A stretch of DNA of 64,000 nucleotides. Origin: Verrucomicrobiia bacterium (GTDB taxonomy: Bacteria > Verrucomicrobiota > Verrucomicrobiia > Opitutales > Opitutaceae). Position 1 is the first letter of the stretch; each line of letters begins with the position of its first letter. Of this stretch, positions 6,102 through 63,467 are shown piece after piece. The notes beneath the pieces were generated by a model, which saw only the letters and a list, made by a program, of their open reading frames with translations, did no database searches and was not told the DNA's origin. The stretch spans positions 62,001 through 126,000 of the forward strand of contig WYBX01000041.1 of assembly GCA_011525695.1 (NCBI GenBank), in the 5' to 3' direction. Position numbers and translations under genes: made by a program.

Positions 6102-6467
6102 ATGGCAGACAAATCACAGTCGTTCAGGGACGTTGTCGTGTGGCAGAAAGCTCACGCATTCACATTGGCGATTTATCGCTGCACCGATGCTTTCCCGAAG
6201 CACGAGCTTTTCGGCCTGACTTCGCAGCTCCGCCGCGCCGCCGCGAGCATTCCATCGAATTTCGTCGAGGGTTTCCGCAAGCGGACGAAGCCGGACAAGC
6301 TGCGTTTCTACAATATTGCACAGGGATCGGCCGACGAGTGTCTCTACCAGCTTATCCTTGCAAATGATCTCCGGTATGTGGACACGACGGCGCTGCAGGC
6401 TCAATTGGAGGAAGTGTCCCGATTGCTCCAGGGCTACATCAATGGCCTCGAACGGGATGGTTCGTGA
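6102..6467 (+). CDS. Four-helix-bundle protein of the S23 / 23S rRNA intervening-sequence family
   Basis: This 121-residue protein shows the family hallmarks: an N-terminal FRDVVVWQKAHAFTLAIY helix, then FPKHELFGLTSQLRRAAASI, then IPSNFVEGF, and YNIAQGSADECLYQLILA. Established knowledge: the family (TIGR02436) was first found as ORFs in intervening sequences of 23S rRNA genes and is related in fold to Avd of diversity-generating retroelements; its biochemical role is unclear. It sits between gatA and gatB, 19 bp after gatA and 37 bp before gatB, in the same direction. It is bracketed by inverted heptamer arrays, the left one ending at its start codon and the right one beginning at its stop codon. 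It looks like a cassette dropped into the operon. Confidence 0.88.
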   Translation: MADKSQSFRDVVVWQKAHAFTLAIYRCTDAFPKHELFGLTSQLRRAAASIPSNFVEGFRKRTKPDKLRFYNIAQGSADECLYQLILANDLRYVDTTALQAQLEEVSRLLQGYINGLERDGS

Positions 6468-6500
6468 CTACCCGCTACTCGCTACCCGCTACTCGCTACT
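6468..6500 (+). repeat. Heptamer array, CTACTCG family (right arm of the S23 cassette)
   Basis: Four and a half units (CTACCCG and CTACTCG alternating) start directly after the S23 TGA and end in CTACTG, 4 bp before the gatB ATG. It is the reverse complement of the left arm at 6072-6099. Confidence 0.92.
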
Positions 6501-6504
6501 GTCC

Positions 6505-8001: not shown

Positions 8002-9068
8002 TGGATGCAGGCTGAGCCCGGCAGGCCGGCAACACATCCGGGTGCGGCACGCGCGAGATCGGCCGGGGTGTTCAGATTGAGGAGTTGCACCGCTTCGCCC
8101 GCGGTCAGGTCAGGGGATTCCAGTAGACCTCTTGCCTTCAGGATGGCACAGGCCTCCTGCAGCGGGCGGCCTTCACCAAGCACGGCCTGCAATACCGGCA
8201 GCGCCGAACGATGCCAGGCGGCAGCGAACGGCTCAAACCCGTTTTCATGCAGGGGAACGACGGATACACCCGCCATGCGAGACAGGTCGGCGATGCGCCC
8301 GAGCAGATCGGCGGCAATCAGCGGCAGGTCGACCGCCAGTACGGTGAGCACCGGCCGGTTCGCGACGGCCAGCCCATTGACCAATGCACCAACGGCACCA
8401 ATGGCGGCGCCCGAATCCTCGATTCGCCGGAAACCCGCCGGTGTCCAGGGTTGATCGGGCCGGCATGCGAGCAGCAGCGGCCACGCGCCTGATCGCGCGA
8501 GGGTTGTGGCCTGATGTTCCCTTAGGGGACGCCCCTGCCAGGCGAGCGCGGACTTGTCCGTGCCCATCCTTCGCGACCGACCGCCGGCCAGCAGGAGACC
8601 GGCCGCACCGGGGCAATCCACTCGCAGGGACCCATCGCTCAGGATTTTCGCCCTCAGCCCCCCGCGACCGCGGAGCCAGGCTTCGGCTCCGGCCGTGACC
8701 ACCTTGTCCATCCAGTAGCACGGGCTGCACTCCGCCATGCCTTGAAAGCGGACTCCCTGGACGGAGAAACGCCGCCCGATCATTCCGGTGAGGTCGATGC
8801 CACGGGTGATGACATTGCGCCGGTAGGCGCCATCCGAATACGGGGCCGGGGACAGCTCCCGCAGGAGCGTCCGGTGCACCTCCTCGGCAAAGAATGTGAT
8901 CTGGCCGGGATAGTCCGGCCGGTGGTCGAAGAAGCGATCGCCGACAATGCCGCGGCCCGCGACGCATTCGACCCGATCCGGCGATACAACCGGATGGTCA
9001 CCCTGCGGGCGACCGTGATGACCAAAGAAGTTGTGGCCGCCGGTGATATGGAGCGCCGAAATCCTCAT
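7998..9068 (-). CDS. MOSC domain - molybdenum cofactor guanylyltransferase (MobA) fusion
   Basis: This 356-residue protein has two domains. Residues 1-152 form a MOSC domain with the conserved ECSPC cysteine (Cys114), a sulfur-carrier module linked to molybdenum-cofactor handling. Residues 156-356 are MobA-like, with the nucleotide-binding signature LLLAGGRSRRMGTDKS (158-173), which attaches GMP to molybdopterin. The two in one chain suggest coupled sulfuration and guanylylation for the neighbouring molybdoenzyme. The ATG at 9068 has GGGAG about 8 bp upstream and was preferred to the longer frame from 9140. The gene follows fdhD by 68 bp on the same strand. Confidence 0.88.
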   Translation of the reverse strand: MRISALHITGGHNFFGHHGRPQGDHPVVSPDRVECVAGRGIVGDRFFDHRPDYPGQITFFAEEVHRTLLRELSPAPYSDGAYRRNVITRGIDLTGMIGRRFSVQGVRFQGMAECSPCYWMDKVVTAGAEAWLRGRGGLRAKILSDGSLRVDCPGAAGLLLAGGRSRRMGTDKSALAWQGRPLREHQATTLARSGAWPLLLACRPDQPWTPAGFRRIEDSGAAIGAVGALVNGLAVANRPVLTVLAVDLPLIAADLLGRIADLSRMAGVSVVPLHENGFEPFAAAWHRSALPVLQAVLGEGRPLQEACAILKARGLLESPDLTAGEAVQLLNLNTPADLARAAPGCVAGLPGSACIH

Positions 9069-15237: not shown

Positions 15238-16053
15238 TCACTTCGCGGTGTACCCGCCGTCGACCGGAAGGTTGATGCCGGTGATGTAACTGGCCGCATC
15301 GCTGAGCAGAAACACGACGGCTCCACCGATCTCGCGGGCCTCCGCCATCCGGCCAAGCATGGTCATCCTGCCGTAGCGCTCGAGGAACGCGGCGGCCTGC
15401 GGTTTTTCGGGGTTGTAGATCCCGCCGGGGGAGACGGCGTTCACGCGGACGCCTTTCGGGCCGTAGTGCGATGCCAGGTACCGCGTGAGATTGAGCATGC
15501 CACCCTTGTGGAAGAAATAGTCCGGCGGTGGATTGGCGCCGCCGCTGTCCTCGTAGAGCCACGGATTCATGCCCACCATGCCCATCATCGAGGCGATGTT
15601 GACGATGCTTCCCCGGCCGGCGGAGGCCATGGCGTCGCCGAATGCGCGCACGCTGGCAAAGAAGCCGGTGGCATTGGTCGCCATCGATTCCTGCCACGCC
15701 TTGAGCTCACTGTCGAATCCGCGCATCGGCCGAGTCACGGCATTGAAGACAAGACCGTCGATCTTCCCGTGGCGCGCGAGCATTCGGTCGCGCAGGGCGT
15801 GGATTGATGATTCTGAGCCGATATCGACTGCCTCCGCTTCGACACGCTGATTCCTGGCACGAGCCGCGGCGGCAGCCGCCTCCAGGGAATCGCGCCTGCG
15901 CGACGCCACAGTCAGGATCGCGCCAGCCCCGCCAATTGCGTCCACCAGCGCCCGACCGAGCAGTCCGCTTCCGCCAATCTGAACGATGACGGAGCCGGCC
16001 AGGGAGAACGGTGTCGCCGTTTCAGGCGTAGGGGCCGGAGGCATTGTGTTCAT
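15238..16053 (-). CDS. SDR family oxidoreductase (module 1)
   Basis: This 271-residue short-chain dehydrogenase begins with a glycine-rich NAD(P) motif of unusual form (VIVQIGGSGLLGRAL). It has FNAVTRPM in place of NAG, then IVNIASMMGMVGMNPW, a Tyr-x3-Lys-like active site seen as DYFFHKGGMLNLTRYLASHYGPKGVRVNAVSPG (split here for length: DYFFHKGGM, VRVNAVSPGG), and the C-terminal YITGINLPVDGGYTAK. In this family the catalytic pair is YxxxK; here the equivalent region reads YFFHK. It is closely similar to the SDR at 53433-54218. It overlaps the HpcH aldolase by 32 bp, so the operon is translationally linked. The start could also be the ATG at 16044. Confidence 0.9.
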   Translation of the reverse strand: MNTMPPAPTPETATPFSLAGSVIVQIGGSGLLGRALVDAIGGAGAILTVASRRRDSLEAAAAAARARNQRVEAEAVDIGSESSIHALRDRMLARHGKIDGLVFNAVTRPMRGFDSELKAWQESMATNATGFFASVRAFGDAMASAGRGSIVNIASMMGMVGMNPWLYEDSGGANPPPDYFFHKGGMLNLTRYLASHYGPKGVRVNAVSPGGIYNPEKPQAAAFLERYGRMTMLGRMAEAREIGGAVVFLLSDAASYITGINLPVDGGYTAK

Positions 16054-16843
16054 GAGTTGGTTCGGTCGGGCGAATATCCTGCTGAATGAGTTTCAGCCGC
16101 GCCTTCAAATAGTCGGAGACGCCGACCACATCGGCACCGATTCCGAACACGCTGTGCCCCTCCTCGACCAACTCGGCGAACGGGGCAATCAAGCCGGCCG
16201 TCATGGCGAATTTTCCATGCTTGCAGGCCACCGCCGCCACGCGCTTGCGGGCGGCGACGACGTCGGGGGCGTCGAGCTGGCCCGCCTTGCCGGTGCGATG
16301 GCTGAAGTCGCCGGGGCCGAACAGAAACCCATCAAAGCCGGGGACTGCGGCAATCTCCTCGACCTGCTCGAGCCCCTTGGGAGACTCGATTTGAAGGATG
16401 ACGATCCGCTCGCGGTTCGAGTGTTCGATATAGTCCTCGAGCGGCAGGAGGCAGAAACGGCCGTCCGCGTTGCCCCCATCGAGCGCCCGTTTGCCGAGCG
16501 GATGAAAGCGAACGTACTCCACGACCTTGCGGGCCTCCTCGGCGCTCGTGACATGCGGCACGATGATGCCGGTGGCATCGGCCTCGAACGGGCGGATATA
16601 GTCGCTGTAACTGCCGCGGGAAACGCGCACGAGGGTGTCGACATCGTGGAGCCGGGCGGCCCGGATCTGGTTCTCGAGCCCGATCCAGTCATTGGGCACG
16701 TGCTCGTTGCACAGCCAGACGGCATCGACGCCGCACAAACCCGCGATTTCGAGCACGCGGGGGTCGGAAAGGTTGACCTTCAGAACCGTCGGAAACTGGC
16801 GCGAACGGAGACGGCGGAGGATTCGACTGGGTCGCAATTTCAT
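16022..16843 (-). CDS. HpcH/HpaI aldolase/citrate lyase family protein
   Basis: This 273-residue class II aldolase-type TIM barrel includes LCGVDAVWLCNEHVPNDW, the metal-ligand glutamate in LQIESPKGLEQV and the metal-ligand aspartate in FGPGDFSHRTG. Relatives cleave 2-keto-3-deoxy sugar acids or 4-hydroxy-2-oxo acids into pyruvate and an aldehyde. Together with the flanking Gfo/Idh and SDR enzymes, a sugar-acid breakdown step is plausible. The ATG at 16843 overlaps the stop of the upstream Gfo/Idh gene as ATGA, and the 3' end overlaps the SDR gene by 32 bp. Confidence 0.88.
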   Translation of the reverse strand: MKLRPSRILRRLRSRQFPTVLKVNLSDPRVLEIAGLCGVDAVWLCNEHVPNDWIGLENQIRAARLHDVDTLVRVSRGSYSDYIRPFEADATGIIVPHVTSAEEARKVVEYVRFHPLGKRALDGGNADGRFCLLPLEDYIEHSNRERIVILQIESPKGLEQVEEIAAVPGFDGFLFGPGDFSHRTGKAGQLDAPDVVAARKRVAAVACKHGKFAMTAGLIAPFAELVEEGHSVFGIGADVVGVSDYLKARLKLIQQDIRPTEPTHEHNASGPYA

Positions 16844-17835
16844 GAGAAGATTTCCTTGATTACCTCGGCCACGGCGACCTGACGGGACTGTTCGCAGCGG
16901 CTGCGGATTCCGCCGATCAAGACGGCCATTAGTTCGATCGTTTCGGAAAACGGGTAGGTTGACCGGCCGGTCTGCACGTAGCTGATGAATTCGGCCAGCT
17001 GGCGCCGGAACGCCGTATAGGTGTCGGCGAGCCGAAGGGTCTTTTCGCCGGCGGTGCCGCAGATGTGGAGGGTGCCGAAGAGCGCGGCGCCGTCTGCGAT
17101 CACGGGCAGCGAGATTTGCACCCCGCTGCGGTGCCGGAGATGAGCCACTTCCAGCCCGGGCTGCGTTTCCAGCCGAACGGTCGCGAATCCCGGGCCCAGC
17201 AGGCGGGCGATGGGTTCGACGAGGTGGATTCCGTAACGCTCCCAGGTCTTGCAACTCAGCCCGGCAATCCAACGGAGTTCTCCGACGCCGAAGTCGATTG
17301 CCAGGGGATCCAGTTCGGGAGAATAGCGAAGCCCGCTCGAGGACTGTATGCGCGCTCCGTGCTGCTGCCAGGAAACGAATGTCTTCAGATCCGAAATTGT
17401 CAGGGCAAGCGGCTTGTCGACAAACACGGGCAGGCCCGCCTCGATGAAGGGTCGCGCCCTTTCCAGGTGATCGAAGCCATCATCGGTGGCGATCAGGACG
17501 GCATCGACCTCGCCGATGACGCTCTGCGGACTTGCCACCACATTCGGAATTTTTGCTGCCCTGGCGACTTGGGGCGCGTCGGCCGGATCATCCGTCCAGA
17601 TATGAGTCACCGTGGCATCCGCGATTCCGACGCTGCCGTCGGGCTGGGCATTCAGGTAGCGAGGAATCACTGGGTAGGGGCAGCCATCCATGGCCGCGCG
17701 GTCGTAGCCGTTGATGATGGCGGACCAGGAGTAGGGGTGACCGTTGCCCGGAATCATCCCTAGCATGGCGAGACGGGCGGGTGTCCGGGGGACAGCATCA
17801 CCTGCGGGTTGAGCTTGGAGTGCGGGGGCAGTCAC
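16840..17835 (-). CDS. Gfo/Idh/MocA family oxidoreductase (module 1, first)
   Basis: This 331-residue protein has a Rossmann-type N-terminus placed unusually late (ARLAMLGMIPGNGHPYSW), DAVLIATDDGFDHLERARPFIEAG and the family EKP-like motif as VDKPLA. A C-terminal alpha/beta domain ends in helices. The family uses NAD(P) to oxidise or reduce hydroxyls of sugars and inositols. The GTG start at 17835 is supported by AGGAG 10 bp upstream. The gene begins 17 bp after the previous Gfo/Idh and ends in a 4-bp ATGA overlap with the aldolase. It is much less similar to the other Gfo/Idh proteins in the window than they are to each other. Confidence 0.85.
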   Translation of the reverse strand: MTAPALQAQPAGDAVPRTPARLAMLGMIPGNGHPYSWSAIINGYDRAAMDGCPYPVIPRYLNAQPDGSVGIADATVTHIWTDDPADAPQVARAAKIPNVVASPQSVIGEVDAVLIATDDGFDHLERARPFIEAGLPVFVDKPLALTISDLKTFVSWQQHGARIQSSSGLRYSPELDPLAIDFGVGELRWIAGLSCKTWERYGIHLVEPIARLLGPGFATVRLETQPGLEVAHLRHRSGVQISLPVIADGAALFGTLHICGTAGEKTLRLADTYTAFRRQLAEFISYVQTGRSTYPFSETIELMAVLIGGIRSRCEQSRQVAVAEVIKEIFS

Positions 17836-17852: not shown

Positions 17853-18872
17853 TTACACCGCGGCCGGGAAGGTCGCGTCGCGCACTGAGACTCGCCGGGA
17901 TGTGTCAGCTGAAGCCAGGGCGGCGAGATTGAAGCGGAGTGTCTCCGCCGCGGCTGCGACCGTGCAGAGCCGTGCGGGCTGACCTTCGATTTGGTCCATG
18001 AACGCGTTGGCCTGGGCTATAAATAGAGCATCACGTTCGATGGGAGGTGAATCGTGCCAGGTCCACGCCAGGTCCTTTTCCCCAAAAAACCCCCAGCGCG
18101 GTGGATTGAATTCTATCCTGACGCTGCCACCAGCGGCGTTGAATTGAATCGTGGTTTCGTTGGGCGATTGAAACTGGTTGAGTGAGTAACTCGCAAGCGT
18201 GTCTCCATGGCGGGCGCTGATATGCACCGTGTCCTCTACCGTTACATTGGATAGCACGAGGTGGGCGCAGTCGCAGAGCAGGGAGTCGGCTGGACCGATC
18301 ACGCTTTCCACCCAGTTCACCACATGGGTGAGCGCATCCTGGATGGCGCCGCCGCCCAGGTTGCGCTCGCGGTAATACGTCGACGCGTATCCCGGCCGCA
18401 GCCGGTGAAAAGGTTGCCCGGCGACTGCGACCACCTGATGGATCTTGCCGAGTGCACCGGTCTGGAGGAACGTCCGGGCGTCTGCGAGCACCGGATGAAC
18501 ATGGTACACATACGCAACGGCGCTTTGTCGGGAGGATACTGCGCACGCCTGCAGCAATTCTTCGATGCGATCAAGGGAATGGGACAGCGGTTTTTCGATC
18601 AACACATGACAGCCGGCAGCCAGGGCGGCCAAGGCGAGGGGCACATGGGTGGGTGCCGGAGTGCAAATGACGACCATGCGGGGGCGGAACTGCCGGAGGC
18701 CCTCCTCCCAGCTTGCGCAGGACGGCAACCCATACGTGGCGGCAACCCTATCCCGCGCTTCGGCTACCGGGTCGCAAACCGATGCCATCGCCCGGCCGGT
18801 TTGGAGAAAACAGCGGGCATGGCGTTCCCCAATGCTGCCACAGCCGATGACGAGAACTGTAGGATTGGACAT
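17853..18872 (-). CDS. Gfo/Idh/MocA family oxidoreductase (module 1, second)
   Basis: This 339-residue protein has the N-terminal dinucleotide motif VLVIGCGSIGERHARCFLQT, ICTPAPTHVPLAL and the EKPLSHS motif, with YHVHPVLADAR and GGGAIQDALTHVVNWVES in the substrate domain. It is clearly paralogous, throughout its length, to the protein at 52370-53440. It is the first gene of the minus-strand operon Gfo/Idh, Gfo/Idh, aldolase, SDR, divergent from gntR with an 83-bp shared upstream region holding a candidate operator. ATG 18872 was chosen; a GTG lies one codon upstream. The substrate is presumably a cyclic sugar or sugar acid. Confidence 0.92.
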   Translation of the reverse strand: MSNPTVLVIGCGSIGERHARCFLQTGRAMASVCDPVAEARDRVAATYGLPSCASWEEGLRQFRPRMVVICTPAPTHVPLALAALAAGCHVLIEKPLSHSLDRIEELLQACAVSSRQSAVAYVYHVHPVLADARTFLQTGALGKIHQVVAVAGQPFHRLRPGYASTYYRERNLGGGAIQDALTHVVNWVESVIGPADSLLCDCAHLVLSNVTVEDTVHISARHGDTLASYSLNQFQSPNETTIQFNAAGGSVRIEFNPPRWGFFGEKDLAWTWHDSPPIERDALFIAQANAFMDQIEGQPARLCTVAAAAETLRFNLAALASADTSRRVSVRDATFPAAV

Positions 18873-18926
18873 CACAGCGGTATGGTCTGGCAGCAGGGAC
18901 GACGCGAGAATTCCGTCTTGCCAGCC

Positions 18927-43187: not shown

Positions 43188-44573
43188 TCAGTACGCCAGT
43201 TCCTTTGCCGTTTCACCGATGGCCTCGTCGATGATGTCGAGCCCCTTCAGCAACGTGGCCTCATCCATCACGATTGGCGGACTCATCCGCAGGATGTGGC
43301 CGGCGGGAATCCAGGCCAGGCCCTTCCGGAATGCCTTTTGGTATACGAGCGTGCCGGCCCGGTCGAAGGGCTCCTTGCTCCGCCGATCCTTGACGAGTTC
43401 GATGCCCATCAGGCAGCCCTTCGCACGCACATCGCCGATGATTTTGTGCTGTTCCTTCATCCGCCGCATCCGCTTCAGCGCGACCTCCCCGAGGTGTGTG
43501 GCGTGTTCAAGCAGGTTCTCCTGCTCGATGACCTGAGTCGAGATTAAGGCGGCGGCGCAGGCCATCGGGTTGCCCCCGTAGCTGCTGGAGGCGGAGATGC
43601 TCTCGAAGCTCTCCTTGAACGGCTCGCGCACGGCCACACAGGTCACCGGAAACCCATTGCCGAACCCCTTGCCGATGGTGACGACATCGGGAACGACGCC
43701 CCAGTGCTCCGTGCACAACCACTTGCCGGTCCGGCCCCAGCTGGTGAGCACCTCGTCGGCCATCAACAGGATTTTTCGATCGTCGCAGAATTTCCGTAGC
43801 TTGGGAAAGAAGTCATCGGGCGGCATGACCGAGCCGCCCCAGCCCTGGATCGGCTCGAGCACGAATCCGGCGACGGCGCCGACGGTCGCCTTGTCGAGAT
43901 ACTCGGCGTAGAACTCGAGATACTTGTCGGTATCGATGCTGCCATCGATTTTGGCCCAGACCGGACGGTAGCAGTCCGGTCGCGGCACCATGTGCGACCC
44001 AGGGGCGCGGACTGCGCCGTAGACGTGAGAGCGGATGTGTCCGAGCGAGACGGCGCCGTAGGTTTTGCCGTGAAAGTCGTAGAAGCAGCTGACGGTCTCA
44101 TGCTTTCCGGTCGCGGCGCGAAGGACCCGGATGCCGGCCTCGACCGCGGCCGTGCCGCAATCGTAGAGTTGGAAACCGTCGAGGTCGCCCGGCAGCACGG
44201 CGGCCAGCTTCTCCATCAACTCGGTCTTGAGCGGAGTCGTGAAATCGTGGGCGTTCATCAGCTGCGAGGCCGCCTTCGCGATCCCCTCGCTGATCTTCGG
44301 GTGGCAGTGACCGAGGGTCGTGACGTAGATGCCGGAGGAAAAATCGATATACCGGTTGCCATCGACATCCCGCAGCACGCAGCCCTGGCCCGATTCGAAG
44401 GAGACCGGAAAGAGCTTCACCTGGCTGCTCAGGCCCTTGAAGTGCTTCGTGCAGCGGTCGTGGTACCGCTTTGACTCCGGCCCCGGAGGCGGCACCGGGA
44501 GGTGTGGGATGCGCGCCAAATCGACGCGGCCCCAGTCGAGGGTGGAGAAGGATTCGGTGGTGGCAGTGCTCAT
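43188..44573 (-). CDS. Class III (PLP-dependent) aminotransferase
   Basis: This 461-residue fold-type I aminotransferase has the PLP lysine at Lys302 (VTIGKGFGNGFPV), the pyridine-nitrogen aspartate at Asp273 (LLMADEVLTSWGRTG) and the FVLEPIQGWGG and YDCGTAAVEAGIRVLRAATG segments. Family members act on omega-amino acids, 4-aminobutyrate, ornithine or sugar-derived amines. Neighbouring NagA and DeoR genes suggest nitrogen removal from an amino-sugar-derived compound, but substrate residues cannot be read. It begins 173 bp downstream of deoR on the same strand. Confidence 0.92.
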   Translation of the reverse strand: MSTATTESFSTLDWGRVDLARIPHLPVPPPGPESKRYHDRCTKHFKGLSSQVKLFPVSFESGQGCVLRDVDGNRYIDFSSGIYVTTLGHCHPKISEGIAKAASQLMNAHDFTTPLKTELMEKLAAVLPGDLDGFQLYDCGTAAVEAGIRVLRAATGKHETVSCFYDFHGKTYGAVSLGHIRSHVYGAVRAPGSHMVPRPDCYRPVWAKIDGSIDTDKYLEFYAEYLDKATVGAVAGFVLEPIQGWGGSVMPPDDFFPKLRKFCDDRKILLMADEVLTSWGRTGKWLCTEHWGVVPDVVTIGKGFGNGFPVTCVAVREPFKESFESISASSSYGGNPMACAAALISTQVIEQENLLEHATHLGEVALKRMRRMKEQHKIIGDVRAKGCLMGIELVKDRRSKEPFDRAGTLVYQKAFRKGLAWIPAGHILRMSPPIVMDEATLLKGLDIIDEAIGETAKELAY

Positions 44574-46023: not shown

Positions 46024-47364
46024 ATGCCAACCCTTTCCTCTGACCACGGTGCCCCTTTGCTCGCCGGCGCGGCGACCGCCGACGTCACGCCGGCGGGCCC
46101 GGTCTTCCTTTTTGGTTATCCGCACGTGCCGCGGCTGAGCACGGGGATCCACGATCCGCTGGAATGTGCCGCCCTTTACCTGCGGCACCGCGATACCCAC
46201 GCGCTCTTTCTCGCGCATGATGTGATCTTTGTTTCGAAGGCGCACGCGGCCGAGATCCGGTGTCGGATTCGGGAGGCAACCGGAATTCCGGAGGCGGCCG
46301 TGATGATCACGGCGACTCACACGCACTCGGGGCCGGTCATGGTGGATTATGTGAGCAACGCATCGGATCCCGTGGTGCCAAAGGCGGATCCCGCCTACCT
46401 CGCGTTCTTTACCGAACGGGTGGTGGCAACCGCCGCCGCGGCGGTGCGCGATGCGGTGCCGGCCGAGATCGGGATGAGTGTGGCCCGCTGCGAGGGGATC
46501 GGCACGAACCGGCACGATCCGGCCGGGCCGGCCGATCCCGACGTGCCGGTCCTCCTGGCCCGATCACTCGCGACCGGCGAGCCGATTGGATGCATGCTGG
46601 TGTGTGCCATGCATCCAACCGTCCTGCACGAGGACTCCACCCTGATGAGTGCGGATTTCCCGTATTTTACCCGCCGGTGCATCCGGCAGCAGCCGGGATA
46701 CGAGGCCTGTCCGGTATTGTTTCACCAGGGCGCATCGGGCAACCAGAGCCCGCGGCACGTCACGCGGACGAACACCTTCGCGGAGGCCGAGCGACTGGGA
46801 GAAATCCTGGGACGCGCGGTGGCGGGAGTCCTGCCTTCCATCAGTTATCGGCGCGATGTCGAGCTGACTGTACGCCGGAAAGAACTCGCCCTGATGCCGC
46901 GCCGGTTTCCTGCTCCCGAGGCCGCAGCGGAGCAGGTAGCCACGGCGAAGACACGTTTTGAGCAGCTGAAGGCCAAAGGCGCGCCGCGGCAGGCAGTCCG
47001 GACTGCTGAGTGCGACGTGTTTGGCGCGGAGGAGACGGCGGAGCTGGCGCAGGCGGCGGTAGACGGCCGGCTGGAGGTAGCGATCGCGGGCTGCATGCCG
47101 GCCGAGATCCAGGCGATCACGATTGGTCCGTGGACCTTTGTCGGCTGGCCGGGCGAGTTCTTTGTGGAGTATGCACTCGAATTGCGCCAGCGGGTGCCGA
47201 ATGCATTCGTGATCACCATGGCGAATGGCGAACTCCAGGGCTACATCGTCACGGAGGAAGCGGCGGCACGTGGCGTTTATGAAGCAACCAACGCAGTCTT
47301 TGCGCCGGAAAACGGCCGGCGTTTTGTAGAAGCGACCCTGGCGCTGCTGGAGGGTGGGAAATGA
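46024..47364 (+). CDS. Neutral/alkaline ceramidase N-terminal-domain family protein
   Basis: This 446-residue protein resembles the N-terminal domain of neutral/alkaline ceramidases: LAGAATADVTPAGPVFLFGY, the zinc-binding TATHTHSGP, CAMHPTVLHEDSTLMSADFP and HQGASGNQSPRHVT, with C-terminal WPGEFFVEYALELRQ. No signal peptide is visible, unlike secreted ceramidases, so a cytoplasmic hydrolase of an N-acyl or other amide compound is more likely. Homologues in carbohydrate clusters are common but uncharacterised. It is divergent from deoR and followed by the FGGY kinase on the same strand. Confidence 0.82.
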   Translation: MPTLSSDHGAPLLAGAATADVTPAGPVFLFGYPHVPRLSTGIHDPLECAALYLRHRDTHALFLAHDVIFVSKAHAAEIRCRIREATGIPEAAVMITATHTHSGPVMVDYVSNASDPVVPKADPAYLAFFTERVVATAAAAVRDAVPAEIGMSVARCEGIGTNRHDPAGPADPDVPVLLARSLATGEPIGCMLVCAMHPTVLHEDSTLMSADFPYFTRRCIRQQPGYEACPVLFHQGASGNQSPRHVTRTNTFAEAERLGEILGRAVAGVLPSISYRRDVELTVRRKELALMPRRFPAPEAAAEQVATAKTRFEQLKAKGAPRQAVRTAECDVFGAEETAELAQAAVDGRLEVAIAGCMPAEIQAITIGPWTFVGWPGEFFVEYALELRQRVPNAFVITMANGELQGYIVTEEAAARGVYEATNAVFAPENGRRFVEATLALLEGGK

Positions 47365-52369: not shown

Positions 52370-53440
52370 ATGCATTCAATTATCATCGTAGGTTGCGGCA
52401 GCATAGGAGAGCGCCATCTTCGCTGCTTTCTCAAAACCGGCCGCGTTCGAGTCACTGCCTGCGATACCGATCCGGAACTGTTGCAGCGAGTGGCGGCGGA
52501 GTATCAGGTGCCCGTGAATTCCAACTGGGAGGAAGCGCTGGTACAGGGTGGATTTGATGCCGCGGTCGTCTGCACGCCGGCCCACCTGCATGTGCCGATG
52601 GCGTTGCGGGCGATGGAGTGCGGTTTGCACACCCTGATCGAAAAGCCGCTCTCGCAGTCGTATCAGGGGGTCAATGACTTGATCGGGCTCCGAAACCGAA
52701 CAGGCCTGCAGGCAGCCGTCGCGTATGTGCTGCACGTCCATCCTCTCCTGGCTGGGGCGCGGATATTCTTGCGCAGCGGGGAGCTGGGCCCGGTTCGCCA
52801 TGTCACGGCCAATTCCGGACAGTATTTCCCGGGAGGACGCCCCGCCCATGCGGTGCATTATTCGCAAACCTATTATCGGGACAGGCGAACCGGAGGCGGG
52901 GCCGTCCAGGATGTGCTGACTCACACCGTGAACTGGGTCGAGAGTGTGGTGGGTCCCGCCGACAGCGTGCTCTGCGACTGCGCGCACCAGGTGCTCGAGG
53001 GTGTTACGGTGGAGGATACGGTCAATGTGTGCGCCCGCCATGGGGAGGTCCTGGCCGCATACGCATTGAACCAGTTTCAGGCGCCCAACGAATCGACGCT
53101 GCAGTTCCACACGGCGACGGGCAGCGTGAAGATCGAGCTGCATCGTGCACGCTGGGGCATCCACCGGCTCGGCGACCGGCAGTGGACATGGCGGGAGTTG
53201 CCCCCGGTGGAGCGTGACGCGCATTTTCTCGCCCAAGCGAATCACTTCCTGGATCAGATCGAAGGGCGGTCGTCTCCCCTCTGCTCACTGGAAGCGGCCG
53301 CGCAGACGCTGCGTTTCAATCTGGCGGCGCTGGCCTCCGCCGAAACCGGTTCCCGCATCCGGTGTGCCGACATTGGGCGCGAAACGCCCGGTGCCAGCCC
53401 GGGGGGCGATGTCGCCTCTCATTCCCCTTCCCATGACTGA
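52370..53440 (+). CDS. Gfo/Idh/MocA family oxidoreductase (module 2)
   Basis: This 356-residue protein starts SIIIVGCGSIGERHLRCFLK and has VVCTPAHLHVPMAL, the IEKPLSQS motif, YVLHVHPLLAGAR and GGGAVQDVLTHTVNWVES. It aligns along its whole length with the oxidoreductase at 17853-18872, well over half identical by eye. The ATG at 52370 has GAGG 7 bp upstream. It overlaps the SDR gene by 8 bp. The pair mirrors the Gfo/Idh and SDR of module 1 and likely acts on a related substrate. Confidence 0.93.
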   Translation: MHSIIIVGCGSIGERHLRCFLKTGRVRVTACDTDPELLQRVAAEYQVPVNSNWEEALVQGGFDAAVVCTPAHLHVPMALRAMECGLHTLIEKPLSQSYQGVNDLIGLRNRTGLQAAVAYVLHVHPLLAGARIFLRSGELGPVRHVTANSGQYFPGGRPAHAVHYSQTYYRDRRTGGGAVQDVLTHTVNWVESVVGPADSVLCDCAHQVLEGVTVEDTVNVCARHGEVLAAYALNQFQAPNESTLQFHTATGSVKIELHRARWGIHRLGDRQWTWRELPPVERDAHFLAQANHFLDQIEGRSSPLCSLEAAAQTLRFNLAALASAETGSRIRCADIGRETPGASPGGDVASHSPSHD

Positions 53441-54218
53441 CTCCAATCTTTTTTCACTGCAGGGCAAGGTTGTGCTGCAAGTCGGCGGTACCGGCCTGCT
53501 CGGCCGGGCGCTCGCGTCCGCGCTGACCACGGCCGGCGGCACATTGGTGGTCGCGTCGCGCAACCGGCACTCGCTGGTGGCATTCGCCGATGCCGAGTGC
53601 TCCGCCGGTCGCAGATTTTCGATCGAGGAGACAGACATCCGTTCGGAGACGTCGTTGAGCGAGCTTCGCGACAGAATCCTCGGAAAGTACGGCGGAATCG
53701 ACGGCGTAGTTTTCAACGCAGTCAGCAGGCCGATGCTGGCGATGGATGACAATATCGGGCTCTGGCGGGAGTCCATGGAGGTCAACTCGACCGGGCTCTT
53801 TGCCACCATGCGCATCTTTGGGGACGCCATGGCTGCCCGGCGCAAAGGCAGTATCGTCAATATTTCCTCGATCTATGGCATGGTGGGAATGAACCCTTGG
53901 CTCTACGAGGGAACGGCGATGACGAGTCCACCCGACTATTACTTTCACAAGGGCGGCATGGTCAACCTGACCCGCTACCTGGCATCCCACTACGGCCCGA
54001 GCGGGGTGCGTGTGAATGTCATCTCCCCCGGTGGAATCTTCGATCCCGGGAAGCCGGCGCCGCCGGAATTTGTCGGGCGTTATGGCCGGATGACGATGCT
54101 GGGGCGGATGGCAAACGCCGCCGAGGTGGGTGGAGCGGTCGTATTTCTCTTGAGCGATGCTTCGAGCTACATCACGGGGGTGAACCTCCCGGTGGACGGA
54201 GGCCTGACCGCCAAGTGA
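53433..54218 (+). CDS. SDR family oxidoreductase (module 2)
   Basis: This 261-residue protein is strongly similar to the SDR at 15238-16053: VVLQVGGTGLLGRAL, FNAVSRPM, IVNISSIYGMVGMNPWLYE, DYYFHKGGMVNLTRYL, VRVNVISPGG and YITGVNLPVDGG. The equivalent of the catalytic YxxxK is YYFHK. ATG 53433 lies inside the end of the Gfo/Idh gene, indicating translational coupling; an in-frame ATG at 53409 is also possible. The shared departure from the classic NAG and TGxxxGxG motifs marks the two SDRs as one subfamily. Confidence 0.92.
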   Translation: MTDSNLFSLQGKVVLQVGGTGLLGRALASALTTAGGTLVVASRNRHSLVAFADAECSAGRRFSIEETDIRSETSLSELRDRILGKYGGIDGVVFNAVSRPMLAMDDNIGLWRESMEVNSTGLFATMRIFGDAMAARRKGSIVNISSIYGMVGMNPWLYEGTAMTSPPDYYFHKGGMVNLTRYLASHYGPSGVRVNVISPGGIFDPGKPAPPEFVGRYGRMTMLGRMANAAEVGGAVVFLLSDASSYITGVNLPVDGGLTAK

Positions 54219-54342: not shown

Positions 54343-55104
54343 ATGACTACAGATTCAACCTCCCGACCCGAAACGCCGGGCCAGCACGACGGCGGTCGTA
54401 CCTATCGCGAAGACTTCGAGCACGGTCCCGGCGGCTGGTGGGGCTGGGCGGGCAACCACGAGGGATTCCGGCGCTTCGAGCTGGCACCCAGCGCAATCCT
54501 CTCCCGCAGCCCCTGGTGGGTCGACTACAACCACGCCCCGCCGGGCGCCGGTTACCTGCACATGATCTTCTGTCTGAATACCAAGGGGCCGCTGGGCGAG
54601 AGCATGACGGACCTGTTCCAACGCAACAAATTCGTTGACGGGAAGTATCCCCAGAATTTCCTGCATGCCTCGCTGACGTTCCGCCTGAAGGGAGAAGTCC
54701 GTCTGCGCGGCGCCCAGCTCTGCCTGCTCCTTCAGGCCTCCGACAGCACCCTGACCTCCGGCTGGGTCCTCCACGGCCAGCCATTGAACATCACCGCCGA
54801 CTGGTCGGAACAGACCATCCAGGTGATGCCTTACCTGGACCAGTGGACGTGCCTCGGCGGCCGGCAAAGCCGGCTGGACTACTATGGTCACCTTCCGCTC
54901 CAGCAGGTGCTGGCGAACGTCAACATCAACCTCATGCTGATACTATTCCCGCTGCAGATATCCCCGATGGGGCCGATCGAGGGCGACCGTCACCTGCTGC
55001 GCGCCGGGCGGGATTATCCGCTCTGGGCCTCCGACCTTCCCGAAGGCTATATCGTCATGGATCGCGCCGAGATTCATTTTCCGGAGACCAGCCTCGTCAA
55101 ATGA
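54343..55104 (+). CDS. Unrecognised protein coupled to the amidohydrolase-aminotransferase fusion
   Basis: This 253-residue soluble protein has no signal peptide. Tryptophan- and glycine-rich beta-strand-like segments (YREDFEHGPGGWWGWAGNHE, WWVDYNHAPPGAGYLHMIF, GWVLHGQPLNITADWSEQ) suggest a jelly-roll or carbohydrate-binding-like fold. Its TGA overlaps the ATG of the fusion gene as ATGA, and it follows the SDR by 124 bp. The tight coupling implies a role with the fusion enzyme. I do not recognise the family. Confidence 0.75.
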   Translation: MTTDSTSRPETPGQHDGGRTYREDFEHGPGGWWGWAGNHEGFRRFELAPSAILSRSPWWVDYNHAPPGAGYLHMIFCLNTKGPLGESMTDLFQRNKFVDGKYPQNFLHASLTFRLKGEVRLRGAQLCLLLQASDSTLTSGWVLHGQPLNITADWSEQTIQVMPYLDQWTCLGGRQSRLDYYGHLPLQQVLANVNINLMLILFPLQISPMGPIEGDRHLLRAGRDYPLWASDLPEGYIVMDRAEIHFPETSLVK

Positions 55105-57428
55105 AGCTCGCCACTCGGCTTTCCCCTCTGGACGAACGCCTGGTGCGCGAATATGCCGCCTTCGTTCCGCACCGAGTCTTCGATATCCACGCCCACCTCG
55201 TGACTCCCGCGGCGAATCTGGGATCGCACCTGCAAACCCAGACGCTCGGACTGGACCGCTATCTCCAGGATATGCAGCGGTTGATGCCCGCCACCAATAT
55301 CGACGCCCTGCTCTTCGGTTTCCCGTCCCGGGACAACGACCGGACGCACATCAACTCGTGGCTCACCGCCCAGCTCCAGTCCGGAGCCAGCAAGGGAACG
55401 TTCCGCGGCCTAGTCCTCACCGCGCCACAGGATGACCGCGAACAAGTCGACCGGCGACTCGCCAGCGGCGCATTTGTCGGCATCAAGCCGTACCATGTCT
55501 ACGCGCCCGGCCAGGACACCAGCCAGGCGGAGATCGAGAGCTTCGCCCCGGAATGGATGTGGGCGTTATGCGATGCGCACGAAGGGCTTCTGATGCTGCA
55601 CATCATGCGGGACCGCGCTCTCGCCGACCCCGGCAATCTTGCGACGATCCGCCGACTGTCGCTCAAGTATCCGCGCTGTCGGTTGATGCTTGCCCATATC
55701 GGACGCTCGTTCAGTTACCGGGCCGCACGGGATGGGCTGCGGCAGATCGCCGACCTCGGGAACGTGTTTGTAGACACCTCGGCGGTGACGGAAACGGACA
55801 CGATTCGGAAGGCGATTGAAGTTCTGGGATTCGAACGCGTGCTGTTTGGATCGGACTATCCCATCACCGACCTGCGCGGCCGCTGCGTCGCGACCGGCGA
55901 GAGCTTCACGTGGTTATATCCCGAGCCCGAAAGCGATTCGCCGGCGGCCCAATCGCCGACGAAGATGACCTTGATCGGGATCGAATCCCTGCTTTGCCTG
56001 CGGGAGGCGTGCGAGGATTGTGGCTTGGGCGAACCAGAAATCCAGGCCATCTTCCGTGGCAACGCTTGCCGGCTGCTCGCCTCCCATCTCGAGCCGCAAG
56101 CCGCGGCACCGACCGTGTCGGGCCCGCAGCTCTGGTCGGAAGCCAAAGGCGTCATATCGTGCGGTGCCGGGCTGCGCTCGAAGTGGGCGGAGCTTTTCGA
56201 CCCGGAGTCATGGCCGTCCTATTACACGAAGTGCGAGGGCAGCACGATCTGGGATTTCTCGGGGCGGAAACTTACCGATTTCTGCGCCGGCGCTGGTGCC
56301 GTAGTCCTCGGATACTCCGACCCGGACGTGAATCGCGCCGTCCAGCGGCGCGTGGCGACCGGATCCTACTGCCAGCTGCTCTCTCCAGACGATCGATCGC
56401 TGGCCGAGCTGCTGCTGGAACTCCACCCGTGGGCAGGCAAGGTGCGTTACGCCCGCGGCGGCGGTGACGCCATGGGAGTCGCGGTCCGGATCGCCCGCGC
56501 GGCCACGGGCAGGAGCGGCATCGCATTCTGCGGCTACCATGGCTGGCAGGACTGGTATCTCGCGGCAAACCTCGGCAACGAGGCCGCGCTCGACGGCCAT
56601 CTCCTGCCGGGGCTGACGCCCTTGGGTGTCCCGCGTGAACTGCGAGGCACCGCGGTTCCATTTCGCTACAACGATGTGGCGAGTTTCGAGGCTGCCCTCG
56701 ATCAACTCGACGGTCGGCTTGCCGCCGTGGTGATGGAGCCGATGCGAACGCAGTTTCCGCTGGATGGCTTCCTCGAACGGGTCAGGCGCCGCTGCCACGA
56801 GCAAGAGGCAGTCTTTGTCTTCGACGAGATCACGAGTGGCTGGCGCTTCGGCTTCCCTGGTGCGCACGCACGGCTTGGAGTGGAGCCCGACATCGCGGTC
56901 TATGCCAAGGCCATCAGCAACGGCTTCCCCTTCGCTGCGATCATCGGCCGCAATCAGGTGATGGACGCCGCCAACCCCAGCTTCATTTCGAGCAGCTATT
57001 GGACGGACGGCGTCGGCCCGGCGGCGGCGCTCGCATCAGTGCGAAAGATGCAAGCGCTAAAGGTCCAACCCGCCATCTGGGCCCGTGGTGAGGAAATGCA
57101 GCACGGGCTCAGGCTCCTCGCGGCCCGGCACCCGGCCTGCAAAATGAAAGTGTGGGGTATGCCGAGTAATCCGTACATGAGCTTCGATCTTGGAGCCGAC
57201 ACTCCGCACATGAAGACGCTCGTTGTTCGGAAAATGCTGGCACGCGGGTTCCTGACCACCGGTGTCGCCCTGTTCATCATGCACACGCACACCTCGGCGA
57301 TGGTACAAACGTATTTATCAGCGCTGGATGATTCGCTCGTGGAGCTCGATGCCCTGGTCACCTCCGGAAGACTCAAGGACGAGGCCGGCAACATGCCCAC
57401 GATCGGCAACTTTTCCCGTCTCACTTGA
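55101..57428 (+). CDS. Fusion: amidohydrolase (metal-dependent TIM barrel) + class III aminotransferase
   Basis: This 775-residue protein joins two enzymes. Residues 1-335 form an amidohydrolase-2-type barrel with His30-x-His32 (RVFDIHAHLV), Lys129 (VGIKPYHVY), His167 (LMLHIMRD), His199 (LAHIGRS) and Asp252 (FGSDYPI). Residues 345-775 are a class III aminotransferase of the glutamate-1-semialdehyde type, with FCGYHGWQDWYLA, Asp575 (VFVFDEITSG) and the PLP lysine Lys603 (VYAKAISNGFPF). A single frame with no stop or frameshift links them by a short PQAAAPTV linker. It could hydrolyse a lactone or amide and then transaminate the product, or vice versa. The order of chemistry is inference. Confidence 0.9.
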   Translation: MKLATRLSPLDERLVREYAAFVPHRVFDIHAHLVTPAANLGSHLQTQTLGLDRYLQDMQRLMPATNIDALLFGFPSRDNDRTHINSWLTAQLQSGASKGTFRGLVLTAPQDDREQVDRRLASGAFVGIKPYHVYAPGQDTSQAEIESFAPEWMWALCDAHEGLLMLHIMRDRALADPGNLATIRRLSLKYPRCRLMLAHIGRSFSYRAARDGLRQIADLGNVFVDTSAVTETDTIRKAIEVLGFERVLFGSDYPITDLRGRCVATGESFTWLYPEPESDSPAAQSPTKMTLIGIESLLCLREACEDCGLGEPEIQAIFRGNACRLLASHLEPQAAAPTVSGPQLWSEAKGVISCGAGLRSKWAELFDPESWPSYYTKCEGSTIWDFSGRKLTDFCAGAGAVVLGYSDPDVNRAVQRRVATGSYCQLLSPDDRSLAELLLELHPWAGKVRYARGGGDAMGVAVRIARAATGRSGIAFCGYHGWQDWYLAANLGNEAALDGHLLPGLTPLGVPRELRGTAVPFRYNDVASFEAALDQLDGRLAAVVMEPMRTQFPLDGFLERVRRRCHEQEAVFVFDEITSGWRFGFPGAHARLGVEPDIAVYAKAISNGFPFAAIIGRNQVMDAANPSFISSSYWTDGVGPAAALASVRKMQALKVQPAIWARGEEMQHGLRLLAARHPACKMKVWGMPSNPYMSFDLGADTPHMKTLVVRKMLARGFLTTGVALFIMHTHTSAMVQTYLSALDDSLVELDALVTSGRLKDEAGNMPTIGNFSRLT

Positions 57429-57566: not shown

Positions 57567-59072
57567 CTAAGTCCGATCGGCTGCACAGCCGCGAAATCCG
57601 CGCAGCGTGAACATCCCAGCCCTCGTTTGTTCTTCGGGCGATAGCGGGCGGATGATCGATTCGGCCCAGCCCCAGCCAATCGTCAGCAACATGCCGGCAG
57701 TCGCCAGCCAGAAGACGTTCAGCGGGGTCCAGAAGCCCATGATGAAGGTTGCCACGACACCGAGGAGGCATGCCCGATAGGCCCCACCGGCCCCGAGTCG
57801 GCTGCTGTAAAGCCCGAGCAGGTAGACCCCCAGCATCCCGCCCATGAAGAGGCTCGCGCCCTTGACCGCCGCCAGCGTGACTTTCGAGTCGAGATGTCCG
57901 GCAAGCAGTGCCGTCCCGATGGCAAACACGCCCCAAGCGACAGTAATCCAGCGCGCGAGCCGCATCTGCGCCGCATCTGAAATGGGTCGGGTGACGCCCG
58001 GGCGAATAAAATCGGTGATGGTGATCGTCGTCAGCGAGTTGAGCACCGAACTCAGGGTGCTCATCGCCGCCGCATAGATCGCCGCAATCATCAGACCCGG
58101 CAATCCACGGGGGAGGAAATTGACAATGAAATACGGCAGGTACTGGTCGGTCTCGAGATGGCCGGGAAAACGTCCTGAGTGTTCCTGGATGAACAGGTAG
58201 AGCAGCGTCCCCATGAGAAAAAGGACGAGGATCACGGGAATGGCGTAGAGGGCATTCAGCGCCAGGGAGCGCCGCGCCGCTTGTGCCGAACTGGAAGCCA
58301 AGTACCGTTGTACCAAAACCTGGTCGACGCCGTAAAACGCGACGTTGTAGACGAGACCTCCCAATGCGGAGCTCCAGAAGGTGATCTCCGTCGCCGAGAA
58401 ACGAAAATCGAGCACGTTGAACTTGTTGGCGGCACTCGCGCGTTCGTACCACTCGATCGGTCCTCCATCGAGCACCACCCCGAAGTAGCCCACGATGAAG
58501 AGAGCGCCACCAAACAGCACGACCACCTGCAACAGTTCCGTCCACACCACCGCACTCATCCCGCCGACAGTCGTGTAGACAATCGTCAGAGTTGCGCTCA
58601 GGACGATGCACAGCGTTAAGTCCCATCCGGTCACCACCGAGAGCGCCAGGGACGGCGCGAAGATCGCCACGCCGGCAAGCGTTCCCCGCATCAACAGGAA
58701 CAGCGCGCTGTTCAGCACGGCCACCCGGCGATCGAATCTGCGCTCCAGGTACTCATAGACAGAGGTCAGCCGCAGGGCGTAGAATACCGGCACAAACAGC
58801 GAGGCCACCAGCAGCGCGGCCGGGGCCCCGACAAGGGAGGACGCGATGATCGACCAGTCCTGGGCGACGACGAAGCCCGGCACGCCGAGAAAACTGATGG
58901 CGCTGGTGGCGGTGCCCAGGACGGAGATGCTCATGACGAGTGCGCCAAACCTCCGCTTGCCAAGAAAGTATTCGTCCAGGGAATTCTGCCCCTTGGCAAA
59001 ATAGAGCCCGATCGCCAGCAGCGTCACGAAATACACGCCGATGGCGAACCAGTCGATCAGGTTGAGCGTCAT
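57567..59072 (-). CDS. Sodium:solute symporter family protein (SSS)
   Basis: This 501-residue membrane protein has SSS landmarks: FAKGQNSLDEYFLGKRRFGAL, LTSVYEYLERRFDRR, TIVYTTVGGMSAVVWTELLQ and LMIAAIYAAAMSTLSSVLNS. It is most like the symporter at 37052-38557. It converges with the fusion enzyme gene. A likely partner for import of the substrate used by the second Gfo/Idh-SDR-fusion module. Confidence 0.92.
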   Translation of the reverse strand: MTLNLIDWFAIGVYFVTLLAIGLYFAKGQNSLDEYFLGKRRFGALVMSISVLGTATSAISFLGVPGFVVAQDWSIIASSLVGAPAALLVASLFVPVFYALRLTSVYEYLERRFDRRVAVLNSALFLLMRGTLAGVAIFAPSLALSVVTGWDLTLCIVLSATLTIVYTTVGGMSAVVWTELLQVVVLFGGALFIVGYFGVVLDGGPIEWYERASAANKFNVLDFRFSATEITFWSSALGGLVYNVAFYGVDQVLVQRYLASSSAQAARRSLALNALYAIPVILVLFLMGTLLYLFIQEHSGRFPGHLETDQYLPYFIVNFLPRGLPGLMIAAIYAAAMSTLSSVLNSLTTITITDFIRPGVTRPISDAAQMRLARWITVAWGVFAIGTALLAGHLDSKVTLAAVKGASLFMGGMLGVYLLGLYSSRLGAGGAYRACLLGVVATFIMGFWTPLNVFWLATAGMLLTIGWGWAESIIRPLSPEEQTRAGMFTLRGFRGCAADRT

Positions 59073-61566: not shown

Positions 61567-61784
61567 GGTGGTGCCGGGCTTTCGGCAAGGCGTGAACCAC
61601 GGGTCGGCGTCCCAGGTGGGAAAGGAATCTGACCAGATATCGGAGTTTGCGGCGGCTGTCGCGCGCCCAGATATCCCGTGTCCGCGGCCGGCTCACTCCC
61701 TCCTGCCAACCGGCCCCGGCGTCGGATCCCAAGCTGGCGCGGCTCGACATTTTGCTCACCAGAAACATCAAGCTCTTCCTCGGA

Positions 61785-63467
61785 ATGAAACCCTTGGCAA
61801 ATCCCCTTCACCCCCTTAATCGCGGCATGACGCTTGCGCTGATCCTGGTTGGCCTGCAGTACCCGGCGGTGCTGCTGGGTTCATTGGACGTGGGTTCCAG
61901 GAAGCAGTTGTTCATCGATCACAAGTTCATCGAGTCGACCGAGGGCGTGGTTCTGACCATGAATCCGCCGGTGCGCTCCGGCCAGTTGCTTATCACTGCA
62001 GATGCTCCGTGGGAAAAAGATCTGCGTGTGGCGAGTTACTGCACGGTGATCGCGGAAGGCGGTCTTATCCGGGTCTGGTACAACATCGTCGGCAAGCAGT
62101 TCATCCCGCGCCAGAATCCCGATTTCATGGGGCTGGCCTACGCGGAATCCCGGGATGGAATCCACTTTACCAAGCCGATTCTCAATCTCGTCGAACACCA
62201 GGGATCCAAGGCAAACAATCTCGTGCTCCCTGGCGACCCCACGAAGTTCTCAATTGGCGGCGGTTCGGTCCAGCGCGATGACAATCCTGATTGTCCTCCA
62301 GAAGAGCGTTACAAGACCTGGATGAAGATCTATCCGAAGCCGGGAGTCCAGATGCACGGGCCCTCTCGGATCTGGGTTTCCCCTGACGGGATTCATTGGA
62401 CCCTCTCCGAGAAGAAGGTGACCGGACTGAGGGCGACCGACACTCAGTTGACGTGGTTCTGGGAGCCGCGCATCGGCCGCTATGTGGTCTACAGCCGCGA
62501 GTGGGTCCAGTTTGACGGGGAGCGGCAGATTCGAATGGCCAGCTACAACGAGTCGGATGACCTGTTCAACTGGGAGAAGACCCGGATTATCCTGGAACCG
62601 GATGCAAAGGACTTCTCCGCGGTGGTGCGCCCGCTGGTGGTGATGGACAAGATGTTCGTGGAGCGGGAGCGCCTGAAGAATCTTCCGGCAAAGGCTCTTG
62701 ATCGCTCCGGCGAGGAGAACCCGGCCTCCACCGATCAGTTTGCCGACAATGTGCCCCCGCCCGGAGCCCCCGTCGATGTCTATGGGCCGGGCGTGATGCG
62801 CTATCAGGAAGCCGACAGCATCTACGTCTCCCTGGCGGCCATGTTCCACCACTCCTGGCAGGAGCGCGGCACGCCGACGCCCGATCGCCCCGACACGGGT
62901 GACGTCGCGCTGGCGCTGAGCCGTGATGGAAAGAACTTCAATCGCGTGGGCAACCGGAGGCCCTTCCTTGGCGTGGGGCCTGCCGGAGCGTTCGATTCCA
63001 GGTGGCTGTGGCCCATGCCGGGCCTGGTGCGGCAAGGGGATGAGATTTGGGTCTATTACTACGGAATGAATATTGATCACTCGTGGCGGGTGGATCCCGA
63101 GTCCCCGTCGGTGCTGACGGGCATTTCCCGGGCGATCCTCCGGCTGGACGGCTTCATGTCGGCTGATTTCGACTATACGGGAGGCACGATCCTGACGCCG
63201 GCGATCCGCTTCGAGGGTTCCCGGCTGGAACTGAATCTCGACACCGGTGCAGGCGGGCTGGGCCGGATTGAGATTCAAGACGAACAGGGGAGGCCGATTC
63301 CCGGATTCACGCTCGCCGACGCCGATTTCCTCAATGGGAACCACGTGCGCATGACGGCCTCATGGAAGGGTAACCGGGATGTCTCTTCTCTCGCCGGCAG
63401 GCCCGTCCGGCTTCTGATGAAGATGCGCAGTGCCAAGCTTTACGCGTTTCAGTTCAAGGCCGAGTGA
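61785..63467 (+). CDS. Secreted glycoside-hydrolase-like propeller protein (GH32/43/sialidase-like fold)
   Basis: This 560-residue protein has a signal-peptide-like N-terminus (MTLALILVGLQYPAVLLGS), then LDVGSRKQLFIDHKFIEST, an opening common to a large planctomycete/verrucomicrobial family annotated as glycosidase-like. Asp-box-type turns SRDGIHFTKP, SPDGIHWTLS and SRDGKNFNRV, and FNWEKTRIIL, support a five- or six-bladed propeller. A C-terminal beta domain (FEGSRLELNLDTGAGGLGRI) may bind sugar. Catalytic residues cannot be fixed by eye. ATG 61785 is the first start compatible with export. Confidence 0.8.
   Translation: MKPLANPLHPLNRGMTLALILVGLQYPAVLLGSLDVGSRKQLFIDHKFIESTEGVVLTMNPPVRSGQLLITADAPWEKDLRVASYCTVIAEGGLIRVWYNIVGKQFIPRQNPDFMGLAYAESRDGIHFTKPILNLVEHQGSKANNLVLPGDPTKFSIGGGSVQRDDNPDCPPEERYKTWMKIYPKPGVQMHGPSRIWVSPDGIHWTLSEKKVTGLRATDTQLTWFWEPRIGRYVVYSREWVQFDGERQIRMASYNESDDLFNWEKTRIILEPDAKDFSAVVRPLVVMDKMFVERERLKNLPAKALDRSGEENPASTDQFADNVPPPGAPVDVYGPGVMRYQEADSIYVSLAAMFHHSWQERGTPTPDRPDTGDVALALSRDGKNFNRVGNRRPFLGVGPAGAFDSRWLWPMPGLVRQGDEIWVYYYGMNIDHSWRVDPESPSVLTGISRAILRLDGFMSADFDYTGGTILTPAIRFEGSRLELNLDTGAGGLGRIEIQDEQGRPIPGFTLADADFLNGNHVRMTASWKGNRDVSSLAGRPVRLLMKMRSAKLYAFQFKAE

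Follow-up and report, generated by a model that had tools for sequence, protein, structure and literature searches.

Does a single reading frame that joins a metal-dependent hydrolase barrel to a class III aminotransferase encode a genuine enzyme, and what would such an enzyme do? This question arises from a locus within a window of 64,000 nucleotides (the whole stretch of DNA analysed here), which belongs to a 6.5 Mb genome of the Opitutaceae. In the following, the amidohydrolase and the aminotransferase part of the protein are abbreviated AH and AT, respectively. The features discussed are compiled in Table 1.

Table 1 Features at the fusion locus and in the second gene set of the window. 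Positions are counted from the first letter of the window.
Feature	Position	Strand	Remarks
AH-AT fusion protein, 775 aa	55101..57428	+	barrel aa 1-~330, linker ~331-350, class III aminotransferase ~350-775
AH domain of the fusion	55101..56090	+	H30/H32 on strand 1, K129 on strand 4, H167 on strand 5, H199 on strand 6, D252 on strand 8
Linker plus AT domain of the fusion	56091..57428	+	PLP lysine K603, D575; GSAM/GenB-like
253-aa protein, ATGA-coupled to the fusion	54343..55104	+	homologue immediately before the fusion in L039 (53%) and L038 (48%)
SDR dehydrogenase	53436..54218	+	52% identical to the SDR in the L177 fusion operon and 50-53% to SDRs at AT loci of Hydrogenedentota
Gfo/Idh/MocA oxidoreductase	52370..53440	+	47% to its counterpart immediately before the fusion in L177
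Sodium:solute symporter, convergent with the fusion	57567..59072	-	same-family symporters recur at AH-AT loci
HpcH/HpaI aldolase	about 16022..16885	-	62-63% identical to the L177 fusion-operon aldolase
Second SDR	15238..16053	-	64% identical to the SDR at 53436
Second Gfo/Idh	17853..18875	-	57% identical to the Gfo/Idh at 52370

A genuine fusion of two enzyme domains

The frame is free of stop codons over 775 codons, and both halves are recognised by Pfam: Amidohydro_2 matches residues 28-326 (E = 2.9e-18, 67.1 bits against a cut-off of 26.4) and Aminotran_3 residues 373-678 (E = 2.8e-39, 135 bits against a cut-off of 30.5). The uninterrupted combination of a metal-dependent barrel and an aminotransferase, which had been described from the letters and their open reading frames (hereafter the sequence-only reading), was thereby reproduced. 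The list of open reading frames also contains an alternative GTG start at 54843; homologues align from or near the ATG at 55101.

A search for the two-domain architecture yielded 40 distinct full-length fusions, the window copy included, which constitute our alignment set; the other members are 37-57% identical to the window protein over its whole length. The fusion occurs in at least six phyla (Verrucomicrobiota, Bacteroidota, Planctomycetota, Armatimonadota, Lentisphaerota and Bacillota), with Cyclobacterium, Lunatimonas, Pleomorphovibrio and Paenibacillus agricola as named carriers besides planctomycete, armatimonadete, lentisphaeral and verrucomicrobial MAGs. Full-length matches were present in 12 of 95 relatives and in 9 of 388 genomes sampled from the phylum, with the window's own genome counted in both cases, and a search of plasmids found no full-length fusion.

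These copies decide whether an error in sequencing or assembly could have joined two genes, or whether the window copy could be degenerate. Separate, overlapping AH and AT genes do exist in one relative (L182), and the copy of Gordonibacillus kamchatkensis (L089) is frame-broken. However, the 40 distinct full-length fusions come from many separate assemblies, and of the 176 highly conserved positions the window copy deviates from the family consensus at just 7, an ordinary number for the family. We therefore reject an artefact, which would be next to impossible, and conclude that the fusion is genuine. In the Gordonibacillus kamchatkensis copy (L089:7965-10275), the frame changes near the start of the AT domain, which is either real or a sequencing error.

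The residues to which activity had been ascribed, H30, H32, H167, H199 and D252 in the barrel and D575 and K603 in the aminotransferase, were correctly named and are invariant in 40 of 40 full-length fusions, so that neither domain has lost its activity residues. As judged from invariance and predicted strands, AH displays the amidohydrolase ligand set with HxH on strand 1, histidines on strands 5 and 6 and aspartate on strand 8. Equally invariant are K129, at the end of the predicted strand 125-130, as well as R202, D225 and a C-terminal F771-x-R773-L774. In dinuclear (subtype I) amidohydrolases, a carboxylated lysine on strand 4 bridges two metals, and K129 may occupy this place. This lysine, the wide conservation of the fusion and a second Gfo-HpcH-SDR set in the window (see below) were absent from the sequence-only reading.

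AH and AT are also found as neighbouring separate genes. In L182, AH (6453-7454) overlaps AT (7447-8763) by 8 bases in the order of the fusion, while L185 carries AT followed by AH. A single gene lies between AT and AH in four further loci and encodes a Gfo/Idh protein in L130 and L132 and a PhyH-type dioxygenase in L105 and L107. A lone AH gene (L134:7168-8208) terminates within the linker, and its neighbours are the MFS and NHL genes that also border the fusion in L122 and L123. It therefore appears to represent a clean natural loss of the AT part at the linker, in the syntenic place of the fusion. The AT family also takes part in two further types of fusion, each of which was seen once. In L105 (7005-9356), the fusion partner of the aminotransferase is a D-isomer-specific 2-hydroxyacid dehydrogenase, and the fused gene precedes PhyH and a separate AH gene; in an acidobacterial MAG (L074:6516-9308), it is fused behind a BNR_2 (sialidase-like) domain.

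In the AT tree, one supported clade of 67 contains all fused domains along with 28 unfused ones, and at least five gains or losses of the fusion are required by supported branches. The fused AH domains form nearly one group in the AH tree. We reject a single origin of all fusions without later change, given a p-AU of 6e-57 for the AT tree (a quick tree) and the five or more changes required there. The AT tree fits one origin followed by splits as well as several fusions, as gain and loss are indistinguishable.

Fold relationships of the two domains

AlphaFold2 modelled the full-length fusion with a mean pLDDT of 82 and a pTM of 0.61, and at this lower certainty the model leaves the mutual arrangement of the domains undefined. 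As a fold search with this model returned solely PLP-enzyme (AT-type) matches among the top 50, AH was modelled separately (mean pLDDT 93, pTM 0.92). In this model, H30 and H32 lie on strand 25-34, H167 follows strand 163-166 and H199 follows strand 194-197.

The best TM-score of AH was obtained for the COG3618 enzyme 4do7 (0.60/0.69). AH shares the barrel, the HxH on strand 1, the histidines of strands 5 and 6 and the aspartate of strand 8 with the COG3618/COG2159 enzymes of Amidohydro_2, which comprise lactonases of the L-fuconolactonase type and decarboxylases of the resorcylate/ACMSD type. In contrast to these enzymes, it is fused to an aminotransferase, has an invariant lysine (K129) where strand 4 ends and is less than 20% identical to all nearest solved structures. 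By E-value (1e-11), the nearest solved folds are the 2,6- and 2,3-dihydroxybenzoate decarboxylases, also of Amidohydro_2. This would fit an AH domain that acts as a decarboxylase of the ACMSD or resorcylate type, with the fused AT aminating or deaminating the product. We consider this improbable: the TM-scores of 0.55-0.58 are low, with 11-19% of the residues identical, strand 4 bears the invariant K129, and the gene neighbourhood is sugar-like, not aromatic. We know of no strand-4 lysine ligand in mononuclear decarboxylases of the ACMSD/resorcylate type.

For AT, the best sequence relatives in the PDB are the GenB-type C-6' aminotransferases (7lld, E = 1e-36) and GSAM, and the best fold matches are FumI, PctV and GSAM. 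It has the fold, the PLP lysine and the aspartate of the GSAM-like class III enzymes (HemL, GenB-type C-6' and the PRK06209 group) and the YHGW motif in common with GenB. It differs from them by the fusion itself, by its sugar-catabolic context and by profile scores far under the curated cut-offs. The score for the HemL (glutamate-1-semialdehyde aminomutase) equivalog was 164.6 bits against a cut-off of 527.3, and every listed match to GntE, PigE and other named transaminase equivalogs was likewise under its cut-off. The SGTEA-like motif of GSAM reads GGGDA or GGGEA in the fusion.

Instead of a transaminase, AT could be a mutase or an ammonia-lyase. An enzyme resembling GSAM, ACL racemase or PbfA would deaminate its substrate directly to a 2-keto-3-deoxy acid. 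GSAM and the ammonia-lyase PbfA are among the closest NCBIfam profiles, racemases occur among the fold matches and OngC performs such chemistry with another PLP fold (PMC9537276). On the other hand, the scores are far below the cut-offs of these very families and the best PDB sequence match is to GenB aminotransferases, which makes a mutase, racemase or lyase rather unlikely.

Gene neighbourhoods of the fusion and its relatives

The Gfo/Idh and SDR genes behind which the sequence-only reading had placed the fusion are present in the window, and their closest counterparts lie in the fusion operon of an Opitutaceae relative (L177). The claimed ATGA coupling to an unrecognised protein holds as well: the TGA of the 253-aa gene overlaps the ATG of the fusion, and its product has no match in Pfam, NCBIfam or the PDB. 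Among 94 other relatives, this family occurs in just four (G003, G004, G010 and G016), the very genomes that carry one clade of free-standing ATs, on contigs other than that of the 253-aa gene. Another family of about 500-660 aa with no Pfam match (window 61647-63467; L042-L045, L119 and L120) often adjoins the fusion in Opitutaceae. A neutral/alkaline ceramidase-like protein (46024-47364) is encoded beside an FGGY kinase and a DeoR-like regulator in the window, and a relative of it follows the fusion in L121.

The genes beside the fusion are only part of the module, as an aldolase, a second SDR and a second Gfo/Idh are encoded elsewhere in the window. This set is located at 15-19 kb, about 38 kb from the fusion. 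The stretch from 15238 to 44573 further contains a TonB receptor, sulfatases, sodium symporters, three BNR_2 proteins, an enolase-type dehydratase-like protein, a 2-hydroxyacid dehydrogenase, a DHDPS-type protein, an Amidohydro_1 protein and a second class III aminotransferase (43188-44573). By its predicted gene content, this stretch resembles an island for the catabolism of polysaccharides or sugars.

Across bacteria, AT relatives divide between two contexts, nonulosonic-acid biosynthesis, in which AH was never seen, and a catabolic module in which AH is found. Free-standing ATs of Patescibacteria, Pelagibacteraceae, SAR86, Desulfobacterota, Nitrospirota and Bacillota reside in clusters of DegT, AKR, CMP-transferase and NeuB genes, which are typical of nonulosonic-acid synthesis. 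The window contains neither NeuB nor CMP-transferase genes, and they were detected at none of 53 AH loci, compared to 36 of 76 loci without AH (Fisher 6e-11, a p-value that ignores relatedness). Moreover, loci with NeuB or CMP-transferase and loci with an aldolase were mutually exclusive (0/29 versus 23/79, relatedness ignored). A comparable biosynthetic cluster is known from the Legionella O-antigen, where the GSAM-labelled gene Lp6_764 lies among CMP-transferase, HisF/HisH, DegT and NeuB genes (PMC3694923). It matches the free-standing AT relatives in annotation and neighbours, a likeness of annotation and context alone, and differs from the AH loci in its biosynthetic setting; AH is absent from the AT loci of this type examined here.

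Recurrent partners at AH loci are HpcH/HpaI aldolases, AKRs, SDRs, Gfo/Idh proteins, PhyH, sodium symporters or MFS transporters and BNR_2 proteins. SSS/MFS transporters are commoner at AH loci (20/53 versus 8/76). A module of AKR, Gfo/Idh, SDR and HpcH genes surrounds AH and AT in Lunatimonas (L049) and Paenibacillus (L101), and the same module without AKR is present in L177, while at many fusion loci the full module is absent nearby. Over the whole locus set, AH and aldolase genes were not significantly correlated (12/53 versus 12/76, p = 0.36), and AH is therefore not obligatory in aldolase clusters. Independent contrasts of AH with nonulosonic-acid, aldolase or transporter genes gave no significant effect, with too few informative pairs and presence and absence clustered on the tree.

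A putative route for amino sugar acids

We assign a probability of roughly 0.5 to the reading of the protein as a bifunctional enzyme that works within a catabolic module for sugar acids. In such a module, a sodium symporter would import an amino sugar, which a Gfo/Idh or SDR enzyme would oxidise. AH would hydrolyse the oxidised product at a metal site formed by H30, H32, K129, H167, H199 and D252, most likely by opening a sugar-acid lactone and less likely by removing an N-acyl group. AT would then transfer the amino group to PLP at K603, which would leave a keto or aldehyde sugar acid; further SDR or dehydratase steps may convert the latter to a 2-keto-3-deoxy acid. Cleavage of the 2-keto-3-deoxy acid by a pyruvate aldolase, of the HpcH/HpaI family here and of the DHDPS type in some relatives, is proposed as the end of the pathway because aldolases of these two unrelated families both occur at AT loci. 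The fusion would hold two consecutive steps together. The multi-step route on an amino or keto sugar derivative that the sequence-only reading had suggested is supported in part, as the locus looks like one for several steps on some sugar derivative.

The reaction of AH is not fixed by homology, as its class holds lactonases, decarboxylases and C-C hydrolases, and its likeness to sugar lactonases consists in fold similarity to COG3618 alone. A lactonase is favoured because of the Amidohydro_2 precedents and the neighbouring sugar dehydrogenases, at a probability that falls just short of even; a decarboxylase or some other activity appears doubtful. Nonphosphorylative routes for L-fucose and L-rhamnose proceed via an SDR, an Amidohydro_2 lactonase, a dehydratase, a further SDR and an aldolase or hydrolase. 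The fusion module resembles them in its content of SDR, Amidohydro_2, SDR and HpcH-type aldolase genes and differs from them in its class III aminotransferase and in that the enolase-type dehydratase does not adjoin the fusion.

Alternatively, AH could be an N-deacylase that frees the amine of an N-acylated, possibly nonulosonic-acid-like sugar acid, after which AT removes this amine, as the degradative counterpart of NeuB-linked clusters. Acylated amino groups are the rule in nonulosonic-acid (NeuB) clusters, and the AT family is common to such DegT-AKR-CMP-transferase-NeuB clusters, with AH missing from every NeuB-type biosynthetic locus. Catabolic loci repeatedly contain genes for BNR_2, SASA esterase and DHDPS-type proteins, but BNR_2 and SASA folds are unspecific for sialic acids and the nearest folds of AH are decarboxylases and lactonases. 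The deacylases of the superfamily known to us belong to Amidohydro_1/3 and not to Amidohydro_2, which also counts against this reading. We regard a deacylase as unlikely, although OngB and OngC provide a precedent (PMC9537276).

In the ong pathway for oxidised chitin, which includes an SSS symporter, the deacetylase OngB is followed by the PLP-dependent deaminase OngC, and an amino sugar acid is converted to a 2-keto-3-deoxy acid (PMC9537276). The logic of a deacetylase followed by a PLP enzyme, the sodium symporter and the conversion of an amino sugar acid to a 2-keto-3-deoxy acid are in common. Unlike the fusion, the ong pathway has separate genes, belongs to the D-aminoacylase-like and fold-type III PLP families and uses a kinase instead of an HpcH aldolase. 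It is a functional analogue of the fusion module and not a homologue.

In line with the sequence-only reading, to which the combination was not known as a described fusion, we found no description of the AH-AT architecture in the open-access literature, a coverage outside which most subscription journals lie. Both superfamilies were already known; what seems to be new is their fusion, which may mark an uncharacterised catabolic module. We tentatively propose, at less than even odds, an undescribed pathway for the degradation of amino sugar acids in at least six phyla, with a bifunctional hydrolase-aminotransferase as its signature enzyme. In this pathway, an AT family of nonulosonic-acid synthesis would be reused degradatively, with a pyruvate aldolase at the end.

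As a Rosetta-stone link, the fusion suggests that the two enzymes act in sequence. It also names partner genes (aldolase, SDRs, Gfo/Idh, AKR and symporter) in cultured Lunatimonas, Cyclobacterium and Paenibacillus, which makes the sugar-degradation route directly testable. Proteins that are loosely annotated as 'glutamate-1-semialdehyde aminotransferases' would thereby gain two separable roles, one in the synthesis and one in the breakdown of sugars.
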